From: Leptospiraceae bacterium | GTDB taxonomy: Bacteria > Spirochaetota > Leptospiria > Turneriellales > Turneriellaceae | Direction: 5' to 3' | NCBI GenBank assembly: GCA_025055765.1 | Contig: JANWWS010000018.1 | Span: 1-64,000 of the forward strand | DNA: 64,000 nucleotides | Shown here: positions 58,768 through 59,292 of the stretch, in pieces | Layout of the letters: every line of letters starts with the position of its first letter | Position numbering within the stretch: position 1 is the stretch's first letter | Made by a program: the position numbers and the translations under genes | The notes under the pieces: generated by a model | The model's input: the letters and a program-made list of their open reading frames with translations, nothing else | Told to the model about the DNA's origin: nothing | Database searches by the model: none

Positions 58768-58914
58768 AAGCTAGCCACCGTGTTGAGCGCTCTGTGTCAA
58801 GGTTTTTAAGAAAACACAAGACCAATCTATCTCCCCCAATATGGGGAAGCTGGCTTTTTGCATTAGGGTTGACAGGGCATCTGCTATCTACGCATTGTCT
58901 GTAGGGGGGTAAAA

Positions 58915-59196
58915 TTGGCCCATACACTTTCCGCAAAAAAACGTATCCGGCAAAACATAAAAAGACGGCTGCGTAACCAGGCCAAAAGGTCGAGGGTACG
59001 CACACTGGAAAAGAAAATTAGAAAACTTTTAGTGGAAAACAAAATAGACGAGGCAAAAGCAGTCTATCGGGAGTTTATGAGTGCGGTTGACAAGGCAGCC
59101 AAAACACGGGTTTTTCATAAAAACAAGGCTGCCCGTAAAAAATCAAGGCTTGCTCTTTTAATCAAGAAAAGTGAGAAAAACCCACCGGGTGATTAG
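58915..59196 (+). CDS. rpsT: Ribosomal protein S20
   Basis: 93 residues, Lys/Arg-rich helical protein of the 30S subunit; AHTLSAKKRIRQN and KTRVFHKNKAARKKSRLA are typical. The start codon is TTG, with AGGGGGG 5 bases before it; TTG often limits S20 expression through autoregulation in other bacteria. A TTGACA at 58869 is a possible -35. The last two codons and TAG lie inside the tRNA-Val gene. Confidence 0.96.
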   Translation: MAHTLSAKKRIRQNIKRRLRNQAKRSRVRTLEKKIRKLLVENKIDEAKAVYREFMSAVDKAAKTRVFHKNKAARKKSRLALLIKKSEKNPPGD

Positions 59197-59260
59197 CTCA
59201 GCTGGTTAGAGCACCTGCCTTACAAGCAGGGGGTCTGAGGTTCGAATCCTCAATCACCCA
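59187..59260 (+). tRNA. tRNA-Val (anticodon TAC)
   Basis: A 74-base cloverleaf: GGGTGAT acceptor pairs with ATCACCC (59253-59259), discriminator A, anticodon loop CTTACAA, T arm GGTTCGAATCC. CCA is not encoded. It shares its first ten bases with the end of rpsT. Confidence 0.97.
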
Positions 59261-59261
59261 A

Positions 59262-59292
59262 GTTTCCACAATTTTCCACAGGCTTTTCCACA
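59262..59292. other. Three DnaA-box-like 9-mers
   Basis: GTTTCCACA (59262-59270), TTTTCCACA (59272-59280) and TTTTCCACA (59284-59292) lie in the same orientation, one mismatch or two from TTATCCACA. They fill most of the 54-base gap between tRNA-Val and the mrp stop. Confidence 0.5.

Follow-up and report, generated by a model that had tools for sequence, protein, structure and literature searches.

A ribosomal protein S20 gene that ends inside a tRNA-Val gene in a Leptospiraceae bacterium

The rpsT gene of a Leptospiraceae bacterium, which encodes ribosomal protein S20, runs into a tRNA-Val gene on the same strand, and this raises the question whether maturation of the tRNA and synthesis of the protein compete for one transcript. 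We analysed the locus in a window of 64,000 nucleotides, i.e. the whole stretch of DNA that was studied (GenBank assembly GCA_025055765.1, contig JANWWS010000018.1, positions 1 to 64,000 of the forward strand). A preliminary description of this DNA had placed the S20 stop codon inside the tRNA and had argued that cleavage by RNase P would leave an S20 message lacking a stop codon, so that the two products compete and ribosome rescue would be needed.

The overlap of a genuine protein gene with a genuine tRNA gene on the same strand is real. The rpsT gene (58915..59196, + strand) encodes 93 amino acids from a TTG start, preceded by a probable ribosome-binding site that was read from the sequence (AGGGGGG, 58903..58909, + strand), and its product matches the Pfam model Ribosomal_S20p at model positions 1-82 of 83 (E=1.4e-24). 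The tRNA-Val with anticodon UAC lies at 59187..59260 (+ strand, CCA not encoded), and these ends are the same in the Rfam tRNA model (74 bits) and in ARAGORN (TAC). The two genes share the 10 nt at 59187..59196 (+ strand). The junction reads AAG AAA AGT GAG AAA AAC CCA CC[G GGT GAT TAG CTC AG, where the bracket marks 59187, and tRNA bases 1-10 consist of the last base of CCG followed by GGT, GAT and TAG. According to the sequence and the ARAGORN coordinates, the S20 stop TAG (59194-59196) is T8-A9-G10 of the tRNA. With both gene calls secured by Pfam, Rfam and ARAGORN, the earlier claims that the stop lies inside the tRNA and coincides with its conserved T8-A9-G10 were borne out. One detail needed correction: GGT GAT TAG had been equated with tRNA bases 1-10, but these are nine bases, 2-10, and G1 is supplied by CCG. 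The conserved core of S20 ends at 59163, and the tail beyond it (59164..59186, + strand), which codes for KKSEKNP and extends two bases into the following Pro codon, would form the 3' end of a message cut by RNase P. The S20 gene is single-copy, and the tRNA gene at 59187..59260 is the sole UAC tRNA-Val of the genome, the other tRNA-Val being GAC. Hence, no second copy of rpsT or tRNA-Val(UAC) that might ease the conflict was found in the genome.

All three frames that enter tRNA-Val(UAC) hit a stop, at bases 4-6, 8-10 or 21-23. Once the last 23 bases before this tRNA contain no stop, a reading frame is therefore bound to end inside it, and this holds for any upstream gene deprived of its stop, whatever its frame. 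tRNAs very commonly carry U8-A9-G10, and TAG at bases 8-10 is present in many tRNAs of the genome. The conserved U8-A9-G10 can thus serve as a stop once an upstream gene has lost its own, and only the missing stop in the 23 bases between the S20 core and the tRNA needs explaining.

We gathered S20 loci throughout the whole class, where 39 of 48 genomes had S20, and also sampled the wider phylum. Enough downstream sequence was available in 37 class relatives, and in 36 of them tRNA-Val(TAC) was the next same-strand tRNA after rpsT. These pairs agree with the pair studied here in genes, order and strand, and almost fully in the 5' sequence of the tRNA, but differ in that the S20 stop always precedes the tRNA. 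The spacing between rpsT and the tRNA varied between 1 nt, the value in G026 (L008), and 305 nt, and it was 1-15 nt in 22 cases. L031, which seems to be the same contig as G004, is the nearest relative as judged by S20 (63% identity); in it a TGA stands 8 nt ahead of GGGTGATTAG, which is identical in this genome. The overlap itself occurred in 0 of the 36 relatives with the gene pair. Conservation in relatives, by which a functional overlap would be recognized, was thus not found, and the preliminary description had itself named relatives of this kind as evidence against its proposal. Outside the class, tight linkage of rpsT and the tRNA was not seen in the phylum loci that were read; in a few members the tRNA lies ~300 nt downstream of rpsT. 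We judge the rpsT–tRNA-Val(UAC) pair, which is class-wide, to be old. The overlap, observed in this genome only, is the lineage-specific extreme of a continuum of tight spacings rather than a conserved device.

A single sequencing or assembly error could produce the same picture: if 59164-59172 lacked one base, the true S20 would end ahead of the tRNA, like those of the relatives, at a TGA with a gap of 12 nt. Insertion of one base in this segment, by duplication of any base, indeed restores a TGA at a gap of 12 nt, which is the typical spacing of the family, and the overlap is known from one assembly, a second not being found among the relatives or viral contigs searched. We nevertheless consider an error unlikely. 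The frame as given reads LIKKS. At this place 9 of 9 relatives of the same family have K and then A, G or S, which backs the given frame up to 59172; with one more A in the A4 run the reading would be KKK instead. Moreover, the genes in the window are long and unbroken, and the genome has a completeness of 99.4% and a contamination of 0.7%. The stop would remain within the tRNA after duplication of any base in 59173-59186, and likewise after any single deletion in 59164-59186.

The simplest reading of the gene spacing is that rpsT and tRNA-Val(UAC) are probably co-transcribed. The pair may be a dicistron that is processed by RNase P: the order is conserved, the gaps are mostly short, and no intervening terminator or promoter turned up in a weak scan that covers the sigma-70-type consensus. 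Upstream of rpsT, the promoter-match scan returned a weak candidate, TTGACA-18-CATTGT (58869..58898, + strand; 9/12), which we regard as doubtful because its start point would land in the ribosome-binding site. Under the stricter rule no promoter reached the threshold at the locus, in a scan that is weak and covers the sigma-70-type consensus only. The tRNA might instead be made from its own promoter inside rpsT, with the rpsT message ended or processed separately and no competition between the two products. A TTGACA inside rpsT near 59087 would fit such an arrangement, but it sits in the VDKA codons and is not followed by a good -10. The internal promoter-like matches shift in place and score among the relatives and have no conserved position, no match at the locus attained the threshold, and no terminator-like site was found on the + strand between rpsT and tRNA-Val. 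We rejected an internal tRNA promoter, as this sigma-70-type scan gave no consistent candidate, and separate production of the tRNA and the message seems improbable.

In a co-transcribed pair, RNase P cleavage at 59187 would likely yield a non-stop S20 message that is cleared by trans-translation, although the exact cut could shift by one base. The genome contains RNase P RNA, a tmRNA (tag ADNTSFALAA) and SmpB. ArfB is probably absent, as a search of the genome yielded only two proteins with a release-factor domain, of the sizes expected for RF1 and RF2, and RqcH gave no match above the cut-off in the genome, only a sub-threshold fragment. Given the presence of tmRNA and SmpB, the probable absence of ArfB and the sub-threshold RqcH, trans-translation is the likely rescue route. 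On a message that ends in ...AAC CCA CC, the last ribosome would hold a Pro codon in its P site and two bases in its A site, which is the standard tmRNA situation. The competition between the tRNA and S20 that had been proposed earlier is thus partly supported. Its mechanical part is plausible, in that the predicted cut would remove the stop, no terminator-like site was found between the genes and the rescue parts are present; a conserved or regulatory arrangement is not supported, as the stop precedes the tRNA in all 36 relatives with the gene pair.

The further claim that S20 synthesis would need ribosome rescue appears too strong. Termination is normal for every ribosome that completes S20 ahead of RNase P. 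Bacteria have about ten tRNAs per ribosome, of which tRNA-Val(UAC) makes up a few per cent, so that with textbook values from other bacteria the need per generation is estimated at roughly 0.5 tRNA-Val(UAC) and one S20 per ribosome. Because each transcript yields one tRNA, about one or two S20 translations per transcript would be enough by these ratios. Ribosomes that trail the polymerase could supply the needed S20 before RNase P acts. Of 37 rpsT genes, 28 begin with TTG or GTG when start codons are assigned by position only, which suggests modest translation per message. The conflict between tRNA maturation and S20 synthesis may be mild, and rescue is probably less essential than had been proposed.

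The best explanation overall, which we hold to be probable, is an old co-transcribed pair in which the upstream stop was lost in this lineage and the overlap is tolerated at some cost in rescue, rather than an evolved switch. Most relatives have the stop a few bases ahead of the tRNA, so that a single RNase P cut would free the tRNA and leave the S20 message intact. In this lineage, whose genome is compact, the stop just upstream would have been lost, possibly through a small insertion or deletion; near 59172 a change of 1 nt would suffice. The S20 frame extends 10 nt into the tRNA, up to the conserved UAG of bases 8-10. S20 would come mainly from ribosomes that reach this UAG ahead of the RNase P cut, while later ribosomes would run to the 3' end ...CCA CC and be cleared by tmRNA-SmpB. 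Such a state could be tolerated if the yield of one tRNA per transcript makes transcription frequent relative to the need for S20, so that few translations per transcript suffice.

The overlap could also be regulatory, the balance between translation and RNase P coupling S20 output to tRNA-Val maturation in such a way that fast RNase P leads to non-stop S20 that is tmRNA-tagged and degraded. The geometry lends itself to this, since RNase P and a ribosome that terminates at bases 8-10 of the tRNA would presumably exclude each other on one molecule, and tmRNA and SmpB are available. However, the overlap is missing from all 36 relatives with the gene pair, and no special fold between leader and tRNA was predicted (about -1 kcal/mol, with more in several relatives without overlap). 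We therefore give a regulatory role little credence. A misfolding switch between leader and tRNA was rejected on the same grounds, its predicted gain being about 1 kcal/mol and larger in several relatives that lack the overlap. Least probable of all is a bacterial tRNA punctuation with regulatory output, in which S20 and tRNA-Val(UAC) are alternatives from one RNA and tmRNA tagging trims S20 to tRNA maturation.

Tolerated loss of the stop, as preferred here, can be compared with several known systems. E. coli arfA has a programmed non-stop message that is cut by RNase III in a regulatory circuit, with tmRNA handling the stalled ribosome. The likeness to rpsT is that a nuclease, here a predicted one, removes the stop and tmRNA deals with the stalled ribosome; the regulatory circuit with RNase III, in contrast, is that of arfA. 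In E. coli secG leuU the coding stop precedes the tRNA, unlike in rpsT, where it lies within the tRNA. According to PMC3985628, which cites Mohanty and Kushner (2008), the secG leuU mRNA-tRNA transcript is cut by RNase P. Both cases combine a protein gene with a downstream tRNA, at rpsT probably as one transcript that is predicted to be split by RNase P. In animal mitochondria, tRNAs punctuate transcripts with incomplete stop codons (Ojala et al. 1981, reviewed in PMC4493943), and polyadenylation completes U or UA to UAA. The present locus resembles the punctuation described there in that a reading frame meets a tRNA and the 5' cut of the tRNA would take all or part of the stop (PMC4493943). 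It is unlike the mitochondrial case in that a full stop exists before the cut and in that the cut S20 message would end in ...CCA CC, where an added A makes no stop; no U or UA would be left at rpsT for completion to UAA. A literature search for rpsT/tRNA overlaps found no report, in a search that left most subscription papers outside its reach.

Among the 37 tRNA genes, which were checked locus by locus, one besides tRNA-Val is touched by a real protein gene. The gene of an M3-family peptidase (Pfam PF01432, E=2.6e-33) overlaps tRNA-Ser(GGA) by 1 base (G000:C49 near 341298; L138:2-1501 and 1501-1588), the final G of its TAG being base 1 of the tRNA. RNase P cleavage at this tRNA would leave UA on the peptidase message, and this predicted end has the same geometry as mitochondrial punctuation (PMC4493943). 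Relatives carry the peptidase without an adjoining tRNA, and a conserved overlap at this gene was rejected for that reason. The second overlap, the coding density of about 92% in the window and the many overlapping gene ends point to general compaction.

At the rpsT locus the same ten bases serve both the maturation of a tRNA and the translation of an abundant protein, and each of the two genes is single-copy. This clean natural case opens the question how frequently non-stop messages arise naturally through RNase P and what tmRNA load results.

Some further sequence features were noted around tRNA-Val. At 59180-59190 of the window, ACCCACC in the S20 tail can form 4 pairs with GGGT in the 5' strand of the tRNA, and it resembles the tRNA 3' end plus CCA; both the pairing and the likeness are probably due to chance. 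Just past tRNA-Val, at 59262-59292, the window contains GTTTCCACA, TTTTCCACA and TTTTCCACA, which are close to DnaA-box sequences. L031, the nearest relative, retains these sites in part (TTTTCCAC, TTTTCCACA, TTTTCCCC), and the other relatives do not. The dnaA gene is on a different contig, and TTWTCCACA occurs 6 times in the window versus 1.5 times expected.
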